Positions 1 to 32,569 are shown, counted from the stretch's first letter. The stretch is DNA of 33,173 nucleotides from Thermoproteota archaeon (GCA_030550585.1 JAUQPB010000006.1:1-33173); one strand, 5' to 3'. Numbers and translations: made by a program. The notes: a model not told the origin generated them from the sequence alone.

Positions 1-126
1 CACCACCAAACCTAGCCAAAGACAGAATTGCGAAAAAGATGACAAAACCAGTTATCCTTAATCAACATCACAGAACAGCACCAAAGAAAACCAAATTATT
101 AAACAAACTATGTAGAAACCACAACA

Positions 127-354
127 TCACCGATTCTCGGTAGCCACATAATCTTCACCATTACGATACCATTTAGCTTTCGGCAAATAGTTGATAAAAC
201 ATGAATACTTTACCTCCACTTTTTGTCTACATTTGTGACATAACAGTAGTTGGGATGCAAACCAGAAGATGTCGCGGTAAACATCACAATGAATCATAGA
301 ATAGAGCTGATAAAGTTTAACAGAGTCGCATTTTGAAGATATTCGTTCACGGTC
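127..354 (-). other. In-frame open extension after the HD gene stop, or separate small zinc-finger-like ORF
   Basis: After the TAA stop of the HD-domain gene, the same minus-strand frame stays open for 75 codons to a TGA at 127-129. An internal ATG at 297 would give a 56-residue protein. The translation contains a CHKC pair, two more Cys upstream and one downstream, and a basic aromatic tail (KAKWYRNGEDY), which suggests a small zinc-binding module. I do not recognise the family. No clear ribosome binding site precedes the ATG at 297. It could be a separate small gene, the remnant of a longer HD protein split by a new stop, or chance. Bases 1-126 show nothing I can support. Confidence 0.3.
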
Positions 355-885
355 TTAGCTGTTAATAACATCGGCAACAATCTTTTCCAGATTGTACTTT
401 TTGACCATTTCCATGATGTCTCTGTAGGCGTTGTCAACTATATCATCGACTTTGTAGCCAAGTCTCTTGTACTCTAATCCTATTAGATATGTCGCTATGT
501 AGTTGCATAGCTTAGCTAACTTAGATTCAAAATCTTTTTGCTCTAGATATTCTCTAAACAACTTTTTAACCAATGGATTATCAACATGCTCTTCAATTAA
601 ATTCAGCTCCAACTCCATTTTCATAGCACCTACTCGAAGAGAAACCATCTTAACGATATCGCCAGTAAAAGCTTCACTAACATCATGTAGTAGAGAGTAT
701 AGAACAAGCTTGCCAATGTCAACACTCTTAATCTTACTGCCAATCTCTATGCATATGTATGCTGTTAGAAAACTGTGATCTGCAACAGACTCAGCAATGC
801 TGCTTGGAACACCCCTCAACATCCACCCACTTCTAACCAATGATATTAAAGCTCTTGCAATCTGTACTAGCCTATTCTTTGTCAT
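355..885 (-). CDS. HD-domain hydrolase, YfbR/HDDC2-like 5'-nucleotidase family
   Basis: A 176-residue HD-superfamily protein of the YfbR/HDDC2 group, whose members remove phosphate from (deoxy)nucleoside monophosphates using a divalent metal. The visible signature is RSGW near residue 19, ESVADHS with His37, LLHD with His67-Asp68, and Glu71 three residues later. Length is normal. The helix that usually carries the last metal ligand as ADKL reads KLCNYIATYL here, so the expected Asp is Asn128; activity may be altered. The start is ATG at 885, with GGGGTGG about five bases upstream and an AT-rich box near 921-930. Family assignment is firm; catalytic competence is uncertain. Confidence 0.8.
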   Translation of the reverse strand: MTKNRLVQIARALISLVRSGWMLRGVPSSIAESVADHSFLTAYICIEIGSKIKSVDIGKLVLYSLLHDVSEAFTGDIVKMVSLRVGAMKMELELNLIEEHVDNPLVKKLFREYLEQKDFESKLAKLCNYIATYLIGLEYKRLGYKVDDIVDNAYRDIMEMVKKYNLEKIVADVINS

Positions 886-920
886 GGAACCACCCCATAC
901 TTAAGACAGTCACACACATT

Positions 921-930
921 TTTAATATAG
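921..930 (-). promoter_or_regulatory. Candidate TATA box for the HD-domain gene
   Basis: Read on the minus strand this is CTATATTAAA, about 40 bases before the ATG at 885. A transcript starting about 25 bases downstream would have a short leader carrying the GGGGTGG ribosome binding site. Position and composition are the only evidence. Confidence 0.4.
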
Positions 931-1007
931 AGTTTATGACAGTTCTGCAAAGTCTAATAGATTTAGATGTGTGTCTTGAATTATGTCTGCGAGGCAAAGA
1001 CTGAATT

Positions 1008-1013
1008 AAAAAA
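1008..1013 (-). terminator. Candidate T-run terminator after the YeeE/YedE gene
   Basis: A run of six T on the minus strand lies about 40 bases after the yeeE-like stop codon, before the HD gene promoter. Archaeal termination commonly uses T-rich tracts; no stem is required or seen. Confidence 0.3.
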
Positions 1014-1051
1014 GAGATTGTAATTAGGATTTACAAAAGATCGGCGTCGTG

Positions 1052-2287
1052 TCAAGCCCTTCCTCTCTTTAGTCTATACTCTTGATAGAAAAGAAATATT
1101 AGATATGTAGCTATAAATATTATGAATATTGCGTACGCTGCAATCCAGCCAATTACACCTGGTATGAAGATTCTTGGGTATTTAGTCAGGCTTTTGCTAA
1201 CAGTGTTGGCAAATATTGGATAGGCCAAAACCGTTGATATCAACCCTATTAGCGCTTTTAGATGGCCTTCGCCTACGCGCCATAGAATTCCTGATGCGCA
1301 ACCACCAACCATAGTGGCTCCAAATATGAATATCGCTCCTCCAATTACATTGGTTATGTAGACAGGCGAAACATTTATCGATATATCAGCCAAGCCCATG
1401 TATTTTAATGCATAAACACCTGTAGCCCCTGTGAGCATTGCTACAGCAATTCCCTTATGGATGTTGATTGCTCTTAGAGCCTCTGGCCCTCTAAGCAGAT
1501 CTCTGAATGCTGTTGCAAAGCAGAATCTCGCCCTCTGTAATATCATGCCCACAGTTACACCTATTAGCAATCCCCCAATCATGTGGCTTCCAATGTAGGC
1601 GTAATAGATAGATGCTAAAGCTATTATTATTAATGGTATAACTAACAATACATTATACTGGTTAGCTTCATGCTTTTTCTCATTGACAGAGCCTATTAAG
1701 AGATCAGCTTTCAGTTCTAGTCTAAACGTTTTCTCAGCTCTCCAAAGCACATATCTTTGTCCTAGATAGCCACCTACCAAAGCCCCTAACAGAAATGCAT
1801 ATCCGTGTAGACTCCAAGATGTTATAGCAGATAGAAAGCCTCCCCAATTGCATCCAAATGCCATTGAAACCCCCAATGCCATTAAAACACCTCCAATAAT
1901 ACTCTCAACAGCTCCTAGTCTATCTACTCCACGTAGACGAAATTCCTTAGACAGTATGGCAGCTATCATAGCACCTAAAATAAGCCCTATGTCACCAGCA
2001 CTTGTAGGCTCTAGAAGAGGCGGGGCTTTAGGTGTACCTGCTAGATCACCTAAGCCCACTAAGCTATATATGTGCTGACCCCAGTTTAGAAATCCCGTAT
2101 ATATAGTAAAAGGCTTTTTAACCCATACATATGATACAATGTTTATTAAACCTATTAAAATGCCTGCTACCACAACAGGCCAACCCTCTGGCCCGAAAAC
2201 CTTTCTAAAGTAGTTGCTCTCCAAATATTTCTTAAAGCTGTTAATGTCTTTGGTATCTGTCTTGCTATTTACAATGTGACTGGCCAT
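1052..2287 (-). CDS. YeeE/YedE-family sulfur (or selenium) transport membrane protein
   Basis: A 411-residue polytopic membrane protein of the YeeE/YedE family. Characterised relatives import thiosulfate through conserved Cys residues, and a YedE branch is linked to selenium use. The family signature is present in both halves: GCNWGG (Cys146), ARFCF (Cys256) and GGCASG (Cys330). Many hydrophobic segments run from about residue 37 to the C terminus, with a soluble N-terminal leader rich in K, D and S. Start ATG at 2287 has AGGTGG four bases upstream. It diverges from the tusA-selD-like run, and the shared palindromes in between suggest co-regulation. The substrate cannot be read from sequence. 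Confidence 0.85.
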   Translation of the reverse strand: MASHIVNSKTDTKDINSFKKYLESNYFRKVFGPEGWPVVVAGILIGLINIVSYVWVKKPFTIYTGFLNWGQHIYSLVGLGDLAGTPKAPPLLEPTSAGDIGLILGAMIAAILSKEFRLRGVDRLGAVESIIGGVLMALGVSMAFGCNWGGFLSAITSWSLHGYAFLLGALVGGYLGQRYVLWRAEKTFRLELKADLLIGSVNEKKHEANQYNVLLVIPLIIIALASIYYAYIGSHMIGGLLIGVTVGMILQRARFCFATAFRDLLRGPEALRAINIHKGIAVAMLTGATGVYALKYMGLADISINVSPVYITNVIGGAIFIFGATMVGGCASGILWRVGEGHLKALIGLISTVLAYPIFANTVSKSLTKYPRIFIPGVIGWIAAYAIFIIFIATYLIFLFYQEYRLKRGRA

Positions 2288-2298
2288 TATACCACCTA

Positions 2299-2309
2299 TA
2301 ACATTGTTA
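2299..2309. promoter_or_regulatory. Candidate operator (TAACATTGTTA) at the yeeE start
   Basis: An 11-base perfect palindrome, TAACATTGTTA, lies 12 bases upstream of the yeeE-like ATG. Its minus-strand context TGTTATAGGTG is identical to that in front of the divergent tusA gene, where a longer version of the same palindrome occurs. The paired occurrence suggests a shared regulator; a single 11-base palindrome alone would not. Confidence 0.45.
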
Positions 2310-2395
2310 ATATAGTAAGAATTGTTAGCGTAAATTAGGAATTATGCCTTTAACACAATTCCTCATATTTTTTGTATGTATTCAAATTCGTAATG

Positions 2396-2405
2396 CTTAT
2401 ATATT
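2396..2405 (+). promoter_or_regulatory. Candidate TATA box for the tusA-selD-like operon
   Basis: CTTATATATT sits about 38 bases before the ATG at 2439. Transcription starting 25-27 bases downstream would begin near 2426, inside the palindrome at 2414-2428, so a repressor bound there could block initiation. Confidence 0.45.
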
Positions 2406-2413
2406 CACACATT

Positions 2414-2428
2414 TATAACACTGTTATA
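2414..2428. promoter_or_regulatory. Candidate operator (TATAACACTGTTATA) at the tusA start
   Basis: A 15-base perfect palindrome centred on 2421, between the TATA-like box and the first tusA start. It overlaps the predicted transcription start and runs directly into the GGTG ribosome binding site. It shares the TAACAnTGTTA core with the element in front of the divergent transporter gene. Confidence 0.45.
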
Positions 2429-2438
2429 GGTGTTTTAC

Positions 2439-2693
2439 ATGGTGAGATTCGCGAAGATTGGCGACAATAAGTATGTGCTTGATGTCAAAGGGTTTGTATG
2501 CCCATATCCAGTCATATATACTAGAAAAGCTCTTTCACAAATCAATGCTGGCGATGTCTTAGAGGTTATAACTGACAATCCACCGTCTTGTGAGAATGTG
2601 CCAAAAGCTGTTGAAGCTGATGGTCACGAGGTATTAGGTGTTGAGAATATCGATAGAGGTGTTTGGAGAATAGTTATCAGGAAGAGGAGGTAG
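2439..2693 (+). CDS. tusA: TusA-family sulfur carrier (first copy)
   Basis: An 84-residue TusA/SirA-family protein. TusA proteins carry sulfur (or selenium) as a persulfide on the Cys of a CPxP motif and pass it to partner enzymes. The motif appears as DVKGFVCPYP near residue 21, followed by the usual alpha/beta fold with NPPSCENVPK, which supplies a second Cys. The ATG at 2439 is preferred because GGTG lies about six bases upstream; an in-frame GTG at 2430 is possible and would be nearly leaderless. The selD-like gene follows six bases after the stop. The acceptor is not known. Confidence 0.88.
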   Translation: MVRFAKIGDNKYVLDVKGFVCPYPVIYTRKALSQINAGDVLEVITDNPPSCENVPKAVEADGHEVLGVENIDRGVWRIVIRKRR

Positions 2694-2699
2694 TAGCTC

Positions 2700-4118
2700 A
2701 TGTTTGAAGAGATTATCAAGAGGGTTGAGTATTATAAGAAACTTGGCTTAAATCCACTTGCACTTGCCACTGGATGCGCTGTTAAAGTCGATCTTCTAAG
2801 AGTTGTTTACCCTGCTTTAAAGATTATTAGAGATGAACTCAAAAACTTTAAGTTTTTCATAGCGCCTAGAGAAGATGCTTTAGTTGTGCCTGGCTATGCC
2901 GATGAGATTTACAGGGCTATATACCCTCTTGGAGTTGATATCGATGTAGACAATAGTTTGAATAGATTGAATAGATATGGAAAGCTCTATTCTGTTACAG
3001 TTGTCCAAGTGTATCAGAGATATGCTGATTCTCCAGAGGGGTTTATCAACAAAATTCTACCTGTATATAGAGGCCTTGCCAAAAGTGGTTTAGAGATAGT
3101 AATTGGAAAGGGACACTCAATCATAACCCCGTTTCCAGAAGACGAGTTTTCACTTTTCGACTTAATACCTCCGCCAACTAGGCTAGAGGGCTTCACAGCT
3201 ATTAACAACGATACAATTCATATTATAGACCCATCTCAAGAGCCTGGAGACTTTAAGCAGGTTAGCGGGGCTTTGAGTAACTCACTTAATGACATATTTG
3301 CCTTAGGTGTGTACAGGGATCTGAGAATCGCACCTGTGGTAAACGCTCCTAGCGAAGAGCTTTTAGAAAAGCTGTTAAGGAATGTAGACCTATACTCAAA
3401 ACAATATGGTGTTAAGGTAGTTGATGTGACGCAACCGAAGAAAGGAAGATTGTTGATGGGGGCAACAGCTATAGGGTACACAGACAAGGCTCCACCACTA
3501 TTTGAGGACAAGGTTGGAAAGGGTATGAAGCTCATTATAACAAGGCCTATGGGGGAACTAGCACCACTAAATCTATACTTGTCTTGTATAATAGATGAGA
3601 GTCTTGTCAAAGATCTGGAGAGTCAAGGCATAGATGTGGGATATCTTGAGAAGATAAAGAATGAAGTTGTTGACCTCATATCCAAGCCCAATATAGATGC
3701 TGCAAAGGTTATATACAAGTATCTGCCGCCTAGCAAAGAGGAGTACAAACCAGGCGAGCACATAGCTGTTACAACAGATGTTACAGGGCCTGGCATACTT
3801 GTTGTGAAAGAACTTGCAGAAAGAACAAATACGAAGATAAGATTGTACACAGTACCCCTTCTATATCCAGAGATATCAGAGATAGCCACAAAGCTATATG
3901 TAATTCCAAACGCTACAAGCGGAACCAACGGACCATTCATAATTGTTGCACCTGATGAGATAGCTGAGGATGTGGTCAGAGACCTGAAGTCACTAGGACT
4001 AAAACCGGCTATAATAGGCGAGGTTGTCGATGTTGGCGAACCAGAGGTTGAAGCACCCAAATCGCTGGAGAGGTTTGTAGCTGATAGAAAGGTACTTGCG
4101 CAATTTAGATTGGTCTAG
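2700..4118 (+). CDS. SelD-like kinase (AIR synthase superfamily), putative chalcogen-activating enzyme
   Basis: A 472-residue relative of selenophosphate synthetase SelD, which makes selenophosphate from ATP and selenide. ATGCAVKVD at residues 23-31 matches the SelD catalytic loop: Cys26 and Lys29 keep the Cys-x-x-Lys spacing of the bacterial Cys/Sec and Lys, while the second Cys of GCGCK is Val. A segment SNSLNDIFALG corresponds to the SelD stretch ending in SDVYAMGG. The protein is about 120 residues longer than typical SelD. No Sec machinery is visible nearby; the neighbours are TusA carriers and an E1-like enzyme. It may activate sulfide or selenide for another acceptor. GGAGGT precedes the ATG by about nine bases. 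Confidence 0.72.
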   Translation: MFEEIIKRVEYYKKLGLNPLALATGCAVKVDLLRVVYPALKIIRDELKNFKFFIAPREDALVVPGYADEIYRAIYPLGVDIDVDNSLNRLNRYGKLYSVTVVQVYQRYADSPEGFINKILPVYRGLAKSGLEIVIGKGHSIITPFPEDEFSLFDLIPPPTRLEGFTAINNDTIHIIDPSQEPGDFKQVSGALSNSLNDIFALGVYRDLRIAPVVNAPSEELLEKLLRNVDLYSKQYGVKVVDVTQPKKGRLLMGATAIGYTDKAPPLFEDKVGKGMKLIITRPMGELAPLNLYLSCIIDESLVKDLESQGIDVGYLEKIKNEVVDLISKPNIDAAKVIYKYLPPSKEEYKPGEHIAVTTDVTGPGILVVKELAERTNTKIRLYTVPLLYPEISEIATKLYVIPNATSGTNGPFIIVAPDEIAEDVVRDLKSLGLKPAIIGEVVDVGEPEVEAPKSLERFVADRKVLAQFRLV

Positions 4119-4128
4119 GGGTAGGGAA

Positions 4129-4425
4129 GTGCTTAAAGCATCTTCTATTACTATTTGTGGAGAGGTTAAAGGTGTTGGATTTAGAAGATATGTTTGGAGA
4201 ATAGCAAAGACGCTTAACTTGAGAGGATTTGTAGAAAACATGCCTAATAGTAATTGTGTTAAGATATATGTTGAAGGCGCAGATAGCGAGATACGCGAGT
4301 TAGTGAATAGAATACTTCAGAATAGGGTGTACACTATTACTAATATAAATGTGGTAGACCATGAATATAGAGGATTGTACACGGATTTCACAATCGTAAA
4401 GTGTGTTGGTGAAGAAGAGGTTTAG
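4129..4425 (+). CDS. Acylphosphatase-family protein
   Basis: A 98-residue acylphosphatase-fold protein. Family enzymes hydrolyse acyl phosphates using an Arg in the phosphate-binding loop and an Asn. Both are visible: KGVGFRR supplies the loop Arg, and GFVEN supplies the Asn. The GTG at 4129 is chosen because a purine-rich GGGGTAGGGAA lies just upstream and because the homologous region begins a few residues later; an upstream TTG at 4096 would overlap the selD-like gene. It sits ten bases after that gene and four bases before the second tusA, so it belongs to the same operon. Its substrate here is unknown; a role in clearing a mixed anhydride made by the kinase or E1 enzyme is only a guess. 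Confidence 0.78.
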   Translation: MLKASSITICGEVKGVGFRRYVWRIAKTLNLRGFVENMPNSNCVKIYVEGADSEIRELVNRILQNRVYTITNINVVDHEYRGLYTDFTIVKCVGEEEV

Positions 4426-4429
4426 ATAT

Positions 4430-4657
4430 GTGAAGGTGCTAGATTTCAGAGGTGAGGAATGTCCTCATCCACTAGTCAAGACCGTTAGAGAACTCTCTAA
4501 GGCGCGTAAAGGGGAAGAAATAATTGTATTGACAACATCAAAGCTATGTGTTGATATGATTAAAGAGTCTGTTGAGGCATTTAATATTGGAGAGATTAAT
4601 ATATGCGAAAAGAATGGGTACTATGAAATTAGGCTTAGAAAAACAGTTGAGTTTTAA
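4430..4657 (+). CDS. tusA: TusA-family sulfur carrier (second copy)
   Basis: A 75-residue TusA-family protein, divergent from the first copy. The active motif is DFRGEECPHP, with Cys in the CPxP position about residue 11; a second Cys occurs in TSKLCVDM and a third in NICEK. The GTG at 4430 gives the standard family length and starts five bases after the acylphosphatase stop; in-frame GTG codons at 4403 and 4409 are alternatives that overlap it. Two TusA proteins in one operon suggest a relay, or carriers dedicated to different partners. Confidence 0.82.
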   Translation: MKVLDFRGEECPHPLVKTVRELSKARKGEEIIVLTTSKLCVDMIKESVEAFNIGEINICEKNGYYEIRLRKTVEF

Positions 4658-4696
4658 GATATACAATAGCCATTATAGCCGATATAGTGATTTTGT

Positions 4697-5728
4697 ATGA
4701 GCATTAGGAAAGGTGTTGCAGATTTTATTGAAAGATACTCTAGACAGCTACTTGTTATTGGAATTGAAAAACAGTTAAAATTGTCTAGCTCTAGAATAGC
4801 CATTATAGGCTGTGGTGCTACAGGTAGTAGCGTGGCCGAGGCACTTGCTAGAGCTGGCGTTGGCTTTATTAGAATTGTTGATAGAGATGTTGTAGAGATG
4901 AACAATATTCATAGAACACATCTGTTTAAAGAAGAAGATGCCTTGAAGAGAATGCCAAAGGCTATTGCATGTAGAAAACATTTAAAGGAAATCAATAGTA
5001 ATGCTGAGGTTGAGGCCATTGTAGACGATGTAGATGCCGATAATATTCAAGATATTATCGGGGATGTGGATCTCGTTATAGACGGCACTGACAACATGGA
5101 CACGAGATATCTAATAAACGAGGCTTGTGTAAAACTTGGCAAGCCCTGGGTTATGATCGGTGTTGAGAGATGGTATGGGAATACAAAGCTTATTGTACCA
5201 GAGAAAACAGCTTGTTTAAAATGTTTCATTCCTAGAGCTAGGACAAGGGAAAATGTGTGTGAAATTCTTGGTGTAATGCCAATAGCTATAAATTTGACGG
5301 TATCTGTGGCACTATCTATCGCAATAAGATATCTAATTGAAAATGAGGTAGATGAGTATTTGTATATAGTTGATGCATATGAAGCAATAATTGAAAAAGC
5401 TTATGTGAGGAGGAACAGCTCTTGTCCTGTATGTATTCACAAACAATTTGATTTTCTGAGAAGAGAAAGAGAAAATGTAAAGATTTTATGTGGTGCAAAG
5501 GCGGTTAAAATAGTGCCTGAAAATCGCATAGAGCTAGATTTTGCAAAGTTAACCAATTCTAACATAGTTAAGAATTTGATGGTATTTGACGACAATGTGG
5601 CTTATGGTGTAGTAGACGGCTTTGAAGTGATGATTCTACGTAATGGAAAATTATTTGTGAAGGGGACAACAGATAAGAGCTGTGCCCTAGAACTATATAA
5701 GAAGATAGTGAATGGCGTTACCAAATGA
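4697..5728 (+). CDS. ThiF/MoeB/HesA-family E1-like adenylating enzyme
   Basis: A 343-residue E1-like protein. These enzymes adenylate the C-terminal glycine of a ubiquitin-like sulfur carrier, or a related group, before sulfur transfer. Visible features are RYSRQLL (13-19), the nucleotide loop IGCGATGSS (37-45), an Asp near residue 62, NNIHR with Arg73, DGTDN (129-133), zinc pairs CLKC (173-176) and CPVC (243-246), and Cys188 near the usual catalytic-Cys region. The last 80 residues form an extra domain seen in archaeal members. It is the last gene of the sulfur island. No ubiquitin-like partner ending in GG is encoded here, so it may work with a SAMP/ThiS-type protein elsewhere or in a non-canonical way. 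Confidence 0.8.
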   Translation: MSIRKGVADFIERYSRQLLVIGIEKQLKLSSSRIAIIGCGATGSSVAEALARAGVGFIRIVDRDVVEMNNIHRTHLFKEEDALKRMPKAIACRKHLKEINSNAEVEAIVDDVDADNIQDIIGDVDLVIDGTDNMDTRYLINEACVKLGKPWVMIGVERWYGNTKLIVPEKTACLKCFIPRARTRENVCEILGVMPIAINLTVSVALSIAIRYLIENEVDEYLYIVDAYEAIIEKAYVRRNSSCPVCIHKQFDFLRRERENVKILCGAKAVKIVPENRIELDFAKLTNSNIVKNLMVFDDNVAYGVVDGFEVMILRNGKLFVKGTTDKSCALELYKKIVNGVTK

Positions 5729-5789
5729 CTTTGTCTGTAAGGCTCTAATGCAACAGCACGCCACTAATGTTTTTCTTAATATTCGAAAG

Positions 5790-6755
5790 TCATACTGTTA
5801 CAATGCCTTGGATATAGTCCCACACTATCTTTGGGACTGCTCTACCCATCCATAAAACGTCTTGTTGTGATATTATAGTGCCTATTGCTATGGGTTCTAG
5901 TCCTATGCTTTTCAGCCTCTCCAGAACCTCTTCCTCGCATCCAGGCTTAGCTATTAGCAGAGGTATGTACTCTTCATTAGATGCTAGAACAGCTATCTGC
6001 AAATCTACACCAACTCTTTTTGAATATTCTATTGCTAGCGGGTGCAGCATTTTAGATGGGTCTTCATCTATGTACACACCAGCTTCGCTGACCTCACTTA
6101 GCTGCTGAAGTGTTTCTGCAAATGTGTCGCTTATGTCTATAGAGCCTTCTAGACATGATCTGCAATGCTCTATAACATCAACTATTTGTTTGCATGGCAT
6201 TGGCCTACAGCTGAATTTGCGTACCTCGTCGATGCTAGGCGTTCTCTTCTTGGCATACTCCATATACCCTATCAGAGATAGCCCTATTCTTCTAGGCAAT
6301 ATAATTTTGCTTAGTTCTCTAGCTCTTCTTGGGAGGGGCCTGTTGTTGCACTCTCCCAGAATGAAAACATCTATCCAGTCGTCGTAGCCTATATTCGTAT
6401 CTATATTCTCTATATAGCCTCCGAACACGTCGACAGCATCTTCAACCCCTTTAATGATATCCTCTACAAAATCAGAATTCTCAGGCTTAACACCAACTGA
6501 GATGGCGTATACATATGGTCTACACCCCTTTGCAATAACATCGCTAACAGCTCCCACAACCCCCCTAAAGCCAAAATCTCTATAGCTACACCAGGGGTAG
6601 AGGGCTCTAGAAGCTGCAAATCCATCAACCTTAACAACAAAATATCTTCCACCAACCTCTATAGCTCCTGCATCGTCAAACCATGTTAGAAGGGATCTGG
6701 GATGCCTCTTAACCTTTCTAGCCAATTTCTTGATAATTTCATCTAGTTTACCCAC
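5790..6755 (-). CDS. thiL: ThiL-like thiamine-monophosphate kinase (AIR synthase superfamily)
   Basis: A 321-residue AIR-synthase/ThiL-type protein, last gene of a thiM-thiE-thiL operon. ThiL phosphorylates thiamine phosphate to the active diphosphate. The family signature is DDAGAIEVGG near residue 28, then VKVDGF and AVSDVIAKGCRPY, which match the metal- and ATP-binding strands. It is divergent: the bacterial metal-loop segment ending in His-Phe is not recognisable. The GTG at 6755 is preferred because GGTGG lies six bases upstream, one base after the thiE stop; a GTG at 6764 overlaps thiE. Assignment rests on fold motifs and on the two thiamine genes upstream. Confidence 0.75.
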   Translation of the reverse strand: MGKLDEIIKKLARKVKRHPRSLLTWFDDAGAIEVGGRYFVVKVDGFAASRALYPWCSYRDFGFRGVVGAVSDVIAKGCRPYVYAISVGVKPENSDFVEDIIKGVEDAVDVFGGYIENIDTNIGYDDWIDVFILGECNNRPLPRRARELSKIILPRRIGLSLIGYMEYAKKRTPSIDEVRKFSCRPMPCKQIVDVIEHCRSCLEGSIDISDTFAETLQQLSEVSEAGVYIDEDPSKMLHPLAIEYSKRVGVDLQIAVLASNEEYIPLLIAKPGCEEEVLERLKSIGLEPIAIGTIISQQDVLWMGRAVPKIVWDYIQGIVTV

Positions 6756-6756
6756 C

Positions 6757-7392
6757 TTACCCACCTGGTTTTAGTATTTCGTCTACAATTTTTCTAAGCT
6801 CTAGAGTAGCTCTATAAACATCTTCAGCGGCCATAACAGCTGATATAACGGCTACCCCTACGACACCTGTCCTAAGAACCTCTCTAACATTATCCCTGTT
6901 TATACCCCCTATGGCGACAACGGGTATGGACACAATCTCAACTATCTTCTTTAGACCCTCCAATCCAATGACTCTTGCATCTGGCTTCGATGGTGTTGGG
7001 TATACCGATCCAGCTCCTAGGAAATGGGCACCCTCTTTCTCAGCATTTAAAGCCTCTTCAACACTGTATACAGAAGCCCCGATAATTAGGTTTGGGGCTA
7101 TTTCACGGGCTATTCTAATAGGCATGTCCTCAGGGCCTAGCTGAACACCATCTGCGTTTGTAGCCAATGCAACGTCTATCCTATCATCGACAAAGTATAG
7201 AGCTCCATAATCTCTGGTCAGCCTCCTAACCCCCCTACCTATCTCCACCATTTCACGTGTAGACGACTCCTTTAATCTAAGCTGAATAGATGTTGCACCA
7301 CCTTTCAATGCCTCCTCAACAGATTTTACAACATCTGGCTTCAACTTTTTATCTGTTATAACAAGAAGTCTAAGTCTCTCAGCCAGTCTCAA
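6757..7392 (-). CDS. thiE: Thiamine-phosphate synthase ThiE
   Basis: A 211-residue TIM-barrel enzyme that joins HMP pyrophosphate and thiazole phosphate to make thiamine monophosphate. Family motifs are in order: SIQLRLKE (pyrophosphate and pyrimidine binding), VDDRIDVALATNADGVQLG, GAGSVYPTPSK (thiazole phosphate loop), and IGGINRDNV for phosphate binding near the C terminus. Length is standard. The TTG at 7392 overlaps the thiM stop by 14 bases, indicating translational coupling; GAGAGAGA precedes it. It feeds the thiL-like gene directly downstream. Confidence 0.93.
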   Translation of the reverse strand: MRLAERLRLLVITDKKLKPDVVKSVEEALKGGATSIQLRLKESSTREMVEIGRGVRRLTRDYGALYFVDDRIDVALATNADGVQLGPEDMPIRIAREIAPNLIIGASVYSVEEALNAEKEGAHFLGAGSVYPTPSKPDARVIGLEGLKKIVEIVSIPVVAIGGINRDNVREVLRTGVVGVAVISAVMAAEDVYRATLELRKIVDEILKPGG

Positions 7393-8215
7393 TCTCTCTC
7401 ACCTCAACAACATTTCTAATAATATCTCCATCGATTCTATAGAGCCAATCATATAGCTTGACATGGAATGAACCTGGGTAGACAGCCTCTTCAGAAGCCT
7501 TGTATGAAACTGCTTTGAATGTGGCCAACCCAGCTATAGCAGCTTTTAGAGGATTTTCCACAGCCAGAAACGCTCCTATTAAAGCCGATACAATACACCC
7601 CAGACCAGTGACTCTATGAATCACATTTTCAAGGCTTTGAGACCCCACTTTGAGTCTCACCTCATAAACATTGGAACCATTGCTAACAAAATCTGTATAG
7701 CCCGTTAAGCCAACAACACAATTGAATTTCTTTGAGGCCTGTAAAACAGCTTCGGATGCAACATTCCTATCATATGAAGCTGCATCAACACCTCTAGTCT
7801 TGCCAAACTCTCCCAGCAGACCCAGGATCTCGCCAAAGTTGCCTTTAACAACACTTATACCACCACTCTCAAGCAATGTCAAGGCCACTCTAGTTCTAAA
7901 CCTGGTTGCGCCAGCCCCTACAGGATCTAGGACAACAGGCTTTTTATATATCTTTGCAAGCTGGACAGCTTTAAGCATAGAGTAGGCGAATTCTTCATCG
8001 ATAGTACCAATGTTTATCACAATAGCGTCTGCTGCAGGCACAAGATCATCTAGATCCTCAACACCATGGGACATTATCGGCGATGCTCCTAGAGCTAGGA
8101 GGGCGTTGGCAGTTGTGTTCATAACAACGAAATTAGTGATGTTGTGAACCAATGGCTTTTTGTTTCTAAGCCTGTCTATTGCATCTCCAACCCAATTCAG
8201 GTTGGCTATGCTCAT
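7379..8215 (-). CDS. thiM: Hydroxyethylthiazole kinase ThiM
   Basis: A 278-residue ribokinase-like enzyme that phosphorylates salvaged hydroxyethylthiazole, giving the thiazole phosphate used by ThiE. The N-terminal VHNITNFVVMN is the classic ThiM substrate loop; GNFGEI and VTGLGCIVSALIG (catalytic-loop Cys) follow. Start ATG at 8215 has GGGG five bases upstream. It leads the thiamine operon, which points to salvage of thiazole. A TATA-like CATTTATAAC lies about 45 bases upstream on the minus strand. I looked for a THI-box riboswitch in the short leader and saw none. Confidence 0.93.
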   Translation of the reverse strand: MSIANLNWVGDAIDRLRNKKPLVHNITNFVVMNTTANALLALGASPIMSHGVEDLDDLVPAADAIVINIGTIDEEFAYSMLKAVQLAKIYKKPVVLDPVGAGATRFRTRVALTLLESGGISVVKGNFGEILGLLGEFGKTRGVDAASYDRNVASEAVLQASKKFNCVVGLTGYTDFVSNGSNVYEVRLKVGSQSLENVIHRVTGLGCIVSALIGAFLAVENPLKAAIAGLATFKAVSYKASEEAVYPGSFHVKLYDWLYRIDGDIIRNVVEVREIETG

Positions 8216-8402
8216 AAAAACCCCATGATTTTTGTATCCAATGCTAAATAAATTTGTTATAAATGGTTGAATAAATAAGCTTTACTATTATAGATGCAAA
8301 GATACGGCTCTATAGCAAATTTTATGGAGATTTGTTGTAGAGGTTTATACTGCGTAAACATTTTTAACCTGCAATGCCATTAAATGGTATTTTGGGATAT
8401 CT
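8216..8402. promoter_or_regulatory. Divergent promoter region, thiM and YHS-copA
   Basis: This 187-base gap separates thiM (minus) from the YHS gene (plus). A TATA-like CATTTATAAC for thiM lies near 8258-8267 on the minus strand. TTTTTAACC near 8360 may serve the YHS gene, with an 11-base palindrome CCATTAAATGG at 8377-8387 just downstream of it. The palindrome could be an operator for the copper genes, but one of this length is expected by chance. Confidence 0.35.
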
Positions 8403-8585
8403 ATGTCTGTGCATATAGATCCTGTATGTGGCATGATAGTCGATCCCGAGAAAGCCAAGTACAAGACTATCTACAGAGGCAAGGTCTACTATTTCTGTAG
8501 CAGACACTGCCTAAATGAGTTTGAGAAGAATCCAGAGTACTACATTACTCACGGACCTAAAGGCATGCCCCATGGCCAATCCTAG
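8403..8585 (+). CDS. YHS-domain protein, probable metal-binding partner of CopA
   Basis: A 60-residue protein made of a single YHS domain. The signature is DPVCGM (residues 6-11), then YYFCSRHC with two Cys three residues apart, and NPEYY at the end. YHS domains bind metals and often sit next to or within heavy-metal P-type ATPases and copper regulators. Here the ATPase starts 20 bases downstream on the same strand, so the two are probably co-transcribed and this protein may deliver or sense copper. The C-terminal HGPKGMPHG adds possible His/Met ligands. Start ATG at 8403 is the only reasonable choice. Confidence 0.85.
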   Translation: MSVHIDPVCGMIVDPEKAKYKTIYRGKVYYFCSRHCLNEFEKNPEYYITHGPKGMPHGQS

Positions 8586-8605
8586 CCTCTTGGGTGTCTA
8601 TAGCC

Positions 8606-11005
8606 ATGGCTGTTGTTAGAGAGAGACTTAGACTAATTGGTGTTGACTGTCCTAGCTGCGTATACTCGATTAACAGGGAGTTGGCGAAGCTCGGATGTGT
8701 AAGCAATTTCAGTGTAGATATATCCTCTGGCGAAGCTCTAATAGAATACGATGATTCTGGATGTAGTCTAGGCGATATATACAAGGCTGTTAGAGACTCT
8801 GGATACGATGTTGTTAAAGAGGTTGCAGTATTTTCTGTAGAGGATCTCGATGCCAATTTGGCTAGGGTTGTTGAGGAGAAGCTGAGTAGAGCTAGAGGGG
8901 TTTTCGAATGCAGAGCCTCTGTCTCTACATCCATGATCAAGGTGATCTACAATCCTCTGACCATAGCTCAGCAAGACGTAGAGAAAATTCTTCTTGGGCT
9001 TGGCATAGAGTTTGAGCATATATCAGAGGAAGCTAGGTCTGGGACTGGGGAAGGTGAACATAGGCTTCTTGTTAGAAGACTCACATCATTTGCCATAGGA
9101 CTCTCAGTTGTGCTTTTCGCTATCCTATCCGTGTTCACCGGTCTCCATATAGACAGCTATGTCTATTTCCTAGCAACAGCTTCTGTGATAATCATTATAC
9201 TGAGCCATGATATTATTTTCAGAGGCTATAAATCGTTGCTAAAGCTTGCGCCAACAATGGATTCTTTTGTGGCTCTCTCCTCGACAATATCATTTCTTTT
9301 TGGAGTTTTGTCTCTATCCAACACTATTTCCCTTGGCAATGAAATACCTGTGTCATCATTCTTCGAGGCTTCTGCAGGTGTTCTGGGTTTTGTTGGTCTG
9401 GGTCTCTATCTTGAAGAGAGGGTTAGGAGAAGGGCTTGGAGAGATGTTGAAGAGCATGTAAAGAGGCTTTACAGCAAAGCAAGGATAGTCTCCAACGAAA
9501 ATGTTGTTGAGGTTAACGCGGATAGGGTCCCTCTTGGAGCTATTGTAGAGATTAGAGCTGGAGAGATTGTGCCTGTAGATGGCGTCGTTGTCGAGGGGGA
9601 GGGATATGTCGATGAATCTAGTTTTACCGGAGAGCCAATGCCTATACACAAAAAGGCTTCGACAAGAGACCCCGTCTTAGCTGGAAGCAAGCTTGTATCT
9701 GGCTATCTAAGGGTTAGAGCAACGAGAGTGGGTAATGAGACAATTCTCTACAGAATAGTTGAGACTATTAGAGAAGCCCAATTCTACAAGCCTAGAATAG
9801 TTAGGCTTGCAGATAAGATAGTCGGATACTTTACCTGGGTTGTCATAGGCCTTGGCATCGCCACAGCGTTGTACTGGTCTATATACGTGGGAGATGTGTC
9901 AAAGGCCATACTCTTCGTTGCAGCAGTTTTTGCAACTGCATGCCCCTGTGGAATAGGAATCGCAATCCCAATGGCTGTTTCAATAGCTGTTCTAGCCACT
10001 GCAAGAAAAGGAATTGTAATTAGACGTGGAGATGTGTTTGACAGAGTTCTTGAAACCTCTGTTGTGCTATTCGACAAAACAGGGACTCTGACCATTGGCT
10101 CGCCAGCTGTGAAAGAAATTGTGTTTCTAGATGGAAATCCTGGTGCAGATGCTATACTCTCTTATGTGTGTAGCATAGAGTCTAGAAGCGAACATCCAAT
10201 AGCCAAAGCCATAGCGAATTACTGCAACGAGAAAGGCGTTGAGCTAAGACAAGTTGAAGAATTTGAGCATTTCCCAGGGCTTGGGGTTGTGGGCAGGGTC
10301 AATGGCATTACTGTGGCTATGGGAAATGCTGAGCTTATGGATAGAATGGGCATTGAGTTGTCGAATAACATTGAAAAGCTTTTAAAAGAAATTGGTGAAA
10401 GAGGTGGAACACCAGTTATAGTGGCAGTAGAGGGGAGACCTGTTGCAGTTATAGAGATTTCCGATAGCCTCAGACCGGAAGCCGCCAAAGTGGTCAGTTA
10501 TTTGAAGAGTCTGGGTCTGAGAATCGGTATTGCCAGTGGCGATGTTCAAGAAGCTGTTAAACATTATGCAGAGATGCTCAAGATAGACTTTTACTACTAC
10601 AAGCTCAAACCCCTTGATAAAGTAGATGTTGTTAAGAAGCTTCAGTTGAATGGAGAAAAAGTTCTCTATGTAGGCGATGGAATAAATGATGCAGCTGCAA
10701 TTTCAGCCGCAAATATCGGTGTAGCTATGGGTAGTGGAGCCGACATCTCTAAGGAGGCTGGAGATGTGATTATAACAAGCAACAGGCTAACAGATATAGT
10801 CTTCCTGATAGAGTTTAGCAAAAAGGTTAGAAGAAAATTCCTTGAAAACATCTTCTGGGCACTTATATACAACACGATATTGCTTCCAATAGCAGCTGGA
10901 GCGCTCTATAGCTACGGCATCTTCATAAAGCCAGAGCTAGGAGCTGTAGCAATGGTTTTAAGTGATGCCAGCGTAGTGCTAAACTCACTAAGACTCTTAA
11001 AGTAG
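8606..11005 (+). CDS. copA: Copper-transporting P1B-type ATPase
   Basis: A 799-residue heavy-metal P-type ATPase. An N-terminal HMA domain carries CPSC (Cys15, Cys18); a second ferredoxin-like repeat to about residue 145 lacks the CxxC. Membrane helices follow, with TGEP in the actuator domain, the intramembrane CPC at 446-448, the phosphorylated Asp490 in DKTGTLT, SEHP in the nucleotide domain, and GDGINDAAAI. CPC together with YN and the late MVLSDAS helix fits the Cu+ exporting subgroup (P1B-1). ATG at 8606 has GGTG nine bases upstream; a GTG at 8594 is an alternative. It is likely co-expressed with the YHS gene and exports Cu+ from the cytoplasm. Confidence 0.92.
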   Translation: MAVVRERLRLIGVDCPSCVYSINRELAKLGCVSNFSVDISSGEALIEYDDSGCSLGDIYKAVRDSGYDVVKEVAVFSVEDLDANLARVVEEKLSRARGVFECRASVSTSMIKVIYNPLTIAQQDVEKILLGLGIEFEHISEEARSGTGEGEHRLLVRRLTSFAIGLSVVLFAILSVFTGLHIDSYVYFLATASVIIIILSHDIIFRGYKSLLKLAPTMDSFVALSSTISFLFGVLSLSNTISLGNEIPVSSFFEASAGVLGFVGLGLYLEERVRRRAWRDVEEHVKRLYSKARIVSNENVVEVNADRVPLGAIVEIRAGEIVPVDGVVVEGEGYVDESSFTGEPMPIHKKASTRDPVLAGSKLVSGYLRVRATRVGNETILYRIVETIREAQFYKPRIVRLADKIVGYFTWVVIGLGIATALYWSIYVGDVSKAILFVAAVFATACPCGIGIAIPMAVSIAVLATARKGIVIRRGDVFDRVLETSVVLFDKTGTLTIGSPAVKEIVFLDGNPGADAILSYVCSIESRSEHPIAKAIANYCNEKGVELRQVEEFEHFPGLGVVGRVNGITVAMGNAELMDRMGIELSNNIEKLLKEIGERGGTPVIVAVEGRPVAVIEISDSLRPEAAKVVSYLKSLGLRIGIASGDVQEAVKHYAEMLKIDFYYYKLKPLDKVDVVKKLQLNGEKVLYVGDGINDAAAISAANIGVAMGSGADISKEAGDVIITSNRLTDIVFLIEFSKKVRRKFLENIFWALIYNTILLPIAAGALYSYGIFIKPELGAVAMVLSDASVVLNSLRLLK

Positions 11006-31747: not shown

Positions 31748-32569
31748 ATGGACATAGAGAAGAGCATTGAAACACTTTCACGCTGGTTCGAGAATGTTGA
31801 GAAGCCTGTTATCGTAGCCTTTTCCGGGGGTGTTGACAGCAGTGTTGTGTTGGCTGTTGCCTGCAGGGCTATAGGATGCGAAAACGTGTTTGCTGCTACT
31901 GCTGTATCCCCCATAAGATTTGAGGAGGATTTGGAGTGGGCTAGAAGGGTTGCACAGCAACTTGGTGTAAAGCACATTGTTTTTGAGACCGACGAGCTTT
32001 CCATACCGGGTTTCGCAACAAACCCGCCGAACAGATGCTATATATGCAAAAAGAACTTGGCTGGTAAACTGGTTGAGCTGGCTAGAAGGCTAAACGCCAA
32101 GACAATTGTCGATGGCTCAAACGCCTCGGACCTGAATAGCTATAGACCCGGTATGCAGGCGTTTCGAGAGGCTGGGATTAGAAGTCCGTTGGCAGAGCTT
32201 GGAATTGGAAAAGATGTTGTGAGGATCATTGCCAAGCACCTTGGGCTGCCAAACTGGGGCAGACCATCGAACAGCTGTATAGCGACTAGAATACCCTATG
32301 GAGAGACCATAACGCTGGATAGGCTGAAGAGAATAGTCCTCGCAGAAAAGACTGTTAGGGAGATTACAGGAGTTGAAGTCGTTAGGGTTAGAGACCACGG
32401 CTACATAGCCAGGATAGAGGTCGACCCCAAGGAAAGGAGAAAATTCTTCGACGAAGAGACTATGGACAGGGTTGCCACAGAACTTAAGAAGCTTGGATAC
32501 AAATATGTGGCACTAGACCTCCAAGGCTATAGAAGCGGAAGCCTCGACGAGATGATAATAAAAAGTTGA
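31748..32569 (+). CDS. larE: LarE-like ATP-dependent sulfurtransferase (PP-loop)
   Basis: A 273-residue PP-loop enzyme of the LarE family. LarE adds sulfur to the nickel-pincer cofactor precursor of lactate racemase-type enzymes. The PP-loop is FSGGVDS (25-31); RCYICKK gives Cys97 and Cys100, and SCIATRIPYG gives Cys177, aligned with the sulfur-donating Cys of bacterial LarE. Three such Cys are the pattern of LarE variants that hold a [4Fe-4S] cluster and need not sacrifice a Cys. LarB, LarC and a LarA-like racemase are not in the window, so another sulfuration target is possible. Start ATG at 31748. Confidence 0.85.
   Translation: MDIEKSIETLSRWFENVEKPVIVAFSGGVDSSVVLAVACRAIGCENVFAATAVSPIRFEEDLEWARRVAQQLGVKHIVFETDELSIPGFATNPPNRCYICKKNLAGKLVELARRLNAKTIVDGSNASDLNSYRPGMQAFREAGIRSPLAELGIGKDVVRIIAKHLGLPNWGRPSNSCIATRIPYGETITLDRLKRIVLAEKTVREITGVEVVRVRDHGYIARIEVDPKERRKFFDEETMDRVATELKKLGYKYVALDLQGYRSGSLDEMIIKS

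Follow-up and report, generated by a model that had tools for sequence, protein, structure and literature searches.

The genes described here occupy positions 1,052 to 5,728 of a contig from a Thermoproteota archaeon (GCA_030550585.1, JAUQPB010000006.1:1-33173). The contig was analysed as a whole, at its full length of 33,173 nucleotides, and is called the window below; it is one of the seven contigs in the 1.76 Mb genome of an Ignisphaera sp., a heat-loving archaeon. On the minus strand lies a gene for a YeeE/YedE-family importer that resembles the thiosulfate transporter TsuA (1052-2287; PF04143 Sulf_transp, 1e-40). Divergent from it, across an intergenic region read from the sequence (2288-2438), are five plus-strand genes. 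These encode the sulfur carrier TusA1, with a CPYP motif (2439-2693; PF01206, 3.1e-24), a SelD-like, PurM-family enzyme that uses adenosine triphosphate (ATP) (2700-4118; NF038049, 593 bits), an acylphosphatase (4129-4425; PF00708, 2.1e-18), a second sulfur carrier, TusA2, with a CPHP motif (4412-4657; PF01206, 5.5e-15), and a long-form E1-like adenylyltransferase of the ThiF/MoeB superfamily (4697-5728; PF00899 ThiF, 2.6e-61). All six frames are open and each matches a named family in profile searches, and the gaps between the five plus-strand genes are 6, 10, -14 and 39 bases, which bears out the preliminary description of an importer diverging from five closely spaced genes. A TATA-like TTATATA near 2398 is a candidate promoter for the plus-strand operon, and no Rfam element was found in window positions 1-9000. 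In a second Ignisphaera (L050, genome G314) the operon is intact, including the divergent YeeE gene, and the SelD-like protein is 87% identical. In a third (G298) the genes for YeeE, TusA1, the SelD-like protein and the acylphosphatase are clustered, and the long E1 is encoded on that contig too, at a distance of about 12 kb.

The SelD-like protein matches NF038049, the model of a "SelD-related putative sulfur metabolism protein", over profile positions 2-464 of 465, and its 593 bits compare with a curated cut-off of 250 bits. It falls outside SelD itself, scoring 30.7 bits with TIGR00476 against a cut-off of 125. The catalytic residues of the SelD type are present as C26 and K29, in a Cys-x-x-Lys arrangement, together with D59, D171, N194, D198 and D360, and all seven are invariant in 28/28 aligned family members outside a divergent group (f49) described below. 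A GKGHSI motif at residues 136-141, within an insertion, is likewise invariant in these 28. Judged by alignment, then, the active site of the kinase proposed earlier is intact. A search with the family profile retrieves structures of human selenide, water dikinase 1 (SPS1) with E = 1e-7; comparison by hhalign with E. coli SelD alone gives a weak match, the profile search against human SPS1 a better one. The GKGHSI motif of the insertion (2859-3200) resembles a GGHSI element found later in SelD, and an N-terminal domain duplication or rearrangement is a weakly supported possibility. Descent of the insertion from that element is not claimed, given that 21/1000 shuffled sequences reach the observed score. 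The f49 group consists of six divergent relatives (L057-L062) in which the catalytic lysine and the majority of the metal ligands are gone; their genes adjoin those for ATP sulfurylase and 3'-phosphoadenosine 5'-phosphosulfate reductase, a sulfate-assimilation context. They are likely to be inactive paralogs.

The SelD-like family, known from hyperthermophilic archaea, was first described by Li et al. in 2014, with a model of thiophosphate synthesis (PMC4210487). They noted TusA (SirA) and peroxiredoxin-like neighbours and a fusion to acylphosphatase in Thermoproteales, and reported the family absent from Desulfurococcales (PMC4210487). A 2022 review of selenium repeats this account, and a paper on the evolution of selenophosphate synthetase does not mention the family. 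The window protein belongs to the same family and shares the TusA neighbour, the acylphosphatase partner and the lack of selenium traits; its operon differs in adding YeeE, a second TusA and the long E1, and in being hosted by Ignisphaera and relatives. NF038049 scores above its cut-off in 58/398 genomes sampled from the phylum and in 30/117 genomes of the source's GTDB order. The confinement to Sulfolobales and Thermoproteales claimed in 2014 does not hold, since members occur in Ignisphaera, Acidilobaceae and others.

Gene order was counted at 38 SelD-like loci, with those of Sulfolobaceae and f49 set aside; a single-sequence search of contigs recovered only two loci. A TusA gene lies within two genes of the SelD-like gene in 35/38 loci, an acylphosphatase is fused to it or adjoins it in 34/38, and YeeE lies within two genes in 10/38. 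The linkage of SelD-like, TusA and acylphosphatase genes is far above chance, and the conserved gene order anticipated around the family is indeed recurrent. In other groups the neighbours include a flavoprotein resembling sulfide:quinone reductase and a protein of the siroheme sulfite/nitrite reductase family. The preliminary description had taken the combination of genes to be undescribed. That is true of its outer parts; the SelD-like family itself, with the links to TusA and acylphosphatase and the idea of thiophosphate, was published in 2014 (PMC4210487). What is new here is the occurrence of the family outside the groups named in 2014, the co-occurrence with YeeE and the long E1, and the TsuA residues of YeeE.

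Co-occurrence was tested within one GTDB order, with Sulfolobaceae excluded and kinship partly corrected, in 17 genomes that carry the SelD-like gene and 85 that do not. YeeE (PF04143) is found in 15/17 of the former and 1/85 of the latter (Fisher p = 6e-15), and counted by genus in 10/11 and 1/38; none of 20000 shuffles within families reaches the observed value. Because several Acidilobaceae importers are not beside the SelD-like gene, this co-occurrence is more than adjacency. Among 11 sampled Ignisphaera genomes, intact YeeE and the SelD-like gene occur in the same three. A broken YeeE fragment of 59 amino acids in genome G398 was scored as absent. It belongs to an Ignisphaera without the SelD-like gene, lies about 10 kb from a long E1 gene (contig C50, L090) and would fit a system lost recently.

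The window importer can be aligned to the thiosulfate transporter structure 6leo, its halves being in swapped order, and also to 8j4c. By alignment its C146, C256 and C330 correspond to C293, C22 and C91 of StYeeE, and its E115, R262, R337 and E340 to E261, R28, R98 and E101. In StYeeE, C22, C91 and C293 are relay cysteines, and R28, R98, E101 and E261 make the contacts with YeeD, which belongs to the TusA family and breaks down thiosulfate (PMC11073785). The conservation of relay cysteines and docking residues favours thiosulfate as the importer substrate, and TusA1, judged by its position, may be the YeeD-like partner. The window pair therefore resembles YeeE-YeeD (TsuA-TsuB, PMC11073785) in its relay cysteines, docking residues and CPxP partner of the TusA family, and differs in that both proteins score under the TsuA and TsuB model cut-offs and are linked to a SelD-like gene.

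The E1 of the window is a second paralog; a shorter gene of the MoeB type, with a 253-amino-acid frame, lies elsewhere in the genome (contig C4, position 331436) and is 39% identical. The long E1 resembles E. coli ThiF and MoeB and archaeal UbaA in its adenylation domain, in two CxxC pairs and in a cysteine aligned to ThiF C184 (alignment to 1zfn). Unlike them, it has an additional C-terminal domain, missing from the housekeeping MoeB, adjoins TusA and stands as a second copy beside the housekeeping gene. Its scores fall short of the equivalog cut-offs for MoeB (105 vs 376.6 bits) and UbaA (130.5 vs 450 bits). It occurs in 15/17 genomes with the SelD-like gene and 16/85 without (p = 8e-8; p = 2e-4 by genus), counts that carry some judgement, given that the long form was recognised manually by the length of the match. 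TusA2 adjoins the long E1 directly in several genomes, and at 20 further E1 loci TusA is a direct neighbour in six and within three genes in seven. Other neighbours of E1 include a class V aminotransferase of the cysteine-desulfurase type, NifU_N, a pyridoxal 5'-phosphate (PLP) enzyme of the O-phosphoserine sulfhydrylase type, enzymes of Cys/Met metabolism and a ThiS-type protein. These neighbours indicate that E1 is part of cytoplasmic sulfur transfer and is not bound to the SelD-like enzyme alone. The proposal that all six genes form one sulfur/selenium island therefore holds as a recurrent island of sulfur genes in which E1 is only partly included. Two ThiS-like candidate partners of E1 are encoded at other sites in the genome, and one scores under its family cut-off.

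Thiamine genes, ThiL-like, ThiE and ThiM, at 5790-8215 converge on E1, an order repeated in L050; the ThiL-like kinase likewise belongs to the PurM family and scores under the ThiL cut-off. A PP-loop protein at 31748-32569 looks LarE-like in our judgement, and a gene resembling it is found close to the long E1 in L089-L091.

Taken together, the locus may be a sulfur-import and activation operon, in which thiosulfate is imported and the SelD-like enzyme makes thiophosphate at the expense of ATP. We give this reading a probability of about 0.5. In short, YeeE would take up thiosulfate, as its relay cysteines and docking residues suggest, and TusA1, acting as YeeD/TsuB does, would accept the sulfane sulfur, with sulfide released or the persulfide passed on. 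The SelD-like enzyme would then phosphorylate sulfide with ATP, by means of C26, K29 and the aspartate metal cluster, to give thiophosphate, a step modelled on the synthesis of selenophosphate by SelD with an active site placed by alignment. TusA2 and the long E1 might help to deliver sulfur, either to a carrier or to an enzyme of assimilation, a guess drawn from linkage, and the likeliest acceptor would be a ubiquitin-like thiocarboxylate, weakly favoured. The catalytic Arg (GVGFRR) and Asn (FVENMP) of the acylphosphatase are intact in alignment to the archaeal acylphosphatase 2bjd. Because it is intact and so tightly linked to the SelD-like enzyme, even fused to it, the acylphosphatase must have as its target something that the phosphorylation step consumes, makes or releases as a by-product. 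Thiophosphate is probably likelier than activated selenium as the product, in line with the thiophosphate option raised at the outset. It is possible, if rather doubtful, that thiophosphate serves as a dedicated, ATP-made and thiosulfate-fed sulfur donor for E1/ubiquitin-like thiocarboxylation or for the synthesis of cysteine from O-phosphoserine.

Several observations weigh against an operon for thiosulfate import and thiophosphate synthesis. YeeE scores under the TsuA equivalog cut-offs (102.6 vs 400 and 83.2 vs 645 bits), and its best match is the selenium-linked YedE/FdhT model, also under cut-off (117 vs 350). The TusA and acylphosphatase neighbours that are typical elsewhere are missing from Sulfolobaceae, and so is a neighbouring YeeE (0/9 loci). 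There the SelD-like genes instead adjoin a flavoprotein related to sulfide dehydrogenase, DUF1641 and, in some species, a molybdenum hydroxylase; in our judgement small DsrE-like proteins, one of which was scanned and has no Pfam match, and rhodanese-like genes are also present. The long E1 is found in genomes without the SelD-like gene, where it adjoins genes for TusA, cysteine desulfurase and O-phosphoserine sulfhydrylase. Structure prediction for the SelD-like protein from three sequences gave a mean confidence (predicted local distance difference test, pLDDT) of 47, and no fold search was based on it. No experimental work on the family, and no measurement of a substrate or product, was found in the open literature. 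As had been noted at the start, the final acceptor is missing.

Alternatively, the genes could form a selenium operon, in which YedE imports selenium species, TusA carries them as YedF does, and the SelD-like enzyme makes selenophosphate for a selenium product. The linkage of SelD, YedE and YedF is established in selenium-using bacteria (PMC5322559), and the window places the same three families side by side. The best NCBIfam matches of the importer and TusA1 are YedE/FdhT and YedF, both under cut-off, and C26, K29 and the aspartates are as in SelD. However, the DsrE domain of YedF is missing, the SelD-like protein scores far under the SelD cut-off, and no known selenium system that uses selenophosphate was found in the source genome. 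Carriers of the SelD-like gene have no known selenium trait (Li et al. 2014, PMC4210487), and in other groups this gene has sulfur genes beside it. The markers for selenouridine, selenocysteine and selenium-cofactor roles (selenouridine synthase, SepSecS and YqeB) are missing from the source genome, and these roles were rejected. The absence of SepSecS agrees with the earlier statement that no selenocysteine genes are visible; one weak partial match over cut-off occurs in another genome (G403). YqeB is not found over cut-off in 41 genomes, the source genome included. Selenouridine synthase is likewise not found over cut-off among 60 relatives, which gives no support to the suggestion that the kinase feeds a selenium-modified transfer RNA (tRNA) base. 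A selenium operon is judged unlikely.

Equally improbable is that the phosphate acceptor of the SelD-like enzyme is not a chalcogenide, as with ThiL and HypE, and that the acylphosphatase removes an acyl-phosphate product; HypE, paired with the acylphosphatase domain found in HypF, provides the analogy. Phosphorylation in the PurM family covers a range of substrates. Acylphosphatase forms the N-terminal domain of HypF, a search with the window acylphosphatase matches HypF, and the C-terminal half of the SelD-like protein has weak similarity to HypE. Against this, the Cys-x-x-Lys of the SelD type is retained in all catalytic members, and the cysteine is reported to be missing from other PurM families (PMC4210487).

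The chances are slimmer still for a tRNA-free chemistry of the SepSecS type, in which an O-phosphoserine sulfhydrylase makes cysteine with thiophosphate from the SelD-like enzyme. A PLP enzyme, matched best among structures by CysO of Aeropyrum pernix, a cysteine synthase also known as an O-phosphoserine sulfhydrylase, adjoins the SelD-like gene at four loci (L034, L039, L043 and L085) and is one gene away at a fifth (L047), all five in family f3; it lies 3 kb away in Ignisphaera L050. The Aeropyrum enzyme is known to use sulfide or thiosulfate, which counts against cysteine synthesis that depends on thiophosphate. The sulfhydrylase occurs in Ignisphaera both with and without the SelD-like gene, which is therefore not required, and neither Sulfolobaceae nor the fused group shows such linkage; as an obligate partner the sulfhydrylase was rejected.

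It is scarcely credible that molybdenum hydroxylases receive their sulfido or selenido ligand through the SelD-like enzyme: the SelD-like gene precedes three hydroxylase subunit genes in the same direction in Sulfolobaceae (L068, L069 and L071), and a MoeA-type molybdopterin gene lies beside or near the fused SelD-like/acylphosphatase gene at three loci (L035, L041 and L044), but MoCoBD_1 (PF02738) is missing from all sampled Ignisphaera and from 13/17 SelD-like-positive genomes outside Sulfolobaceae, with no association (p = 0.99), and its absence from the source genome also removes the molybdenum-cofactor role first suggested, so that such hydroxylases were rejected as the general acceptor.

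For thiosulfate import coupled to thiophosphate synthesis, the links to YeeE and E1 narrow the question to an input, thiosulfate, and an output, E1-dependent sulfur transfer, both of which are testable. Sulfolobus, for which genetic tools exist, has a SelD-like gene, without adjoining TusA and acylphosphatase genes. We know of no phosphate-activated sulfur donor in any characterised pathway. Should thiophosphate prove to be the product of the SelD-like enzyme, archaea would have such a donor, the sulfur equivalent of selenophosphate, and the beginnings of selenophosphate chemistry could be viewed in a sulfur context.

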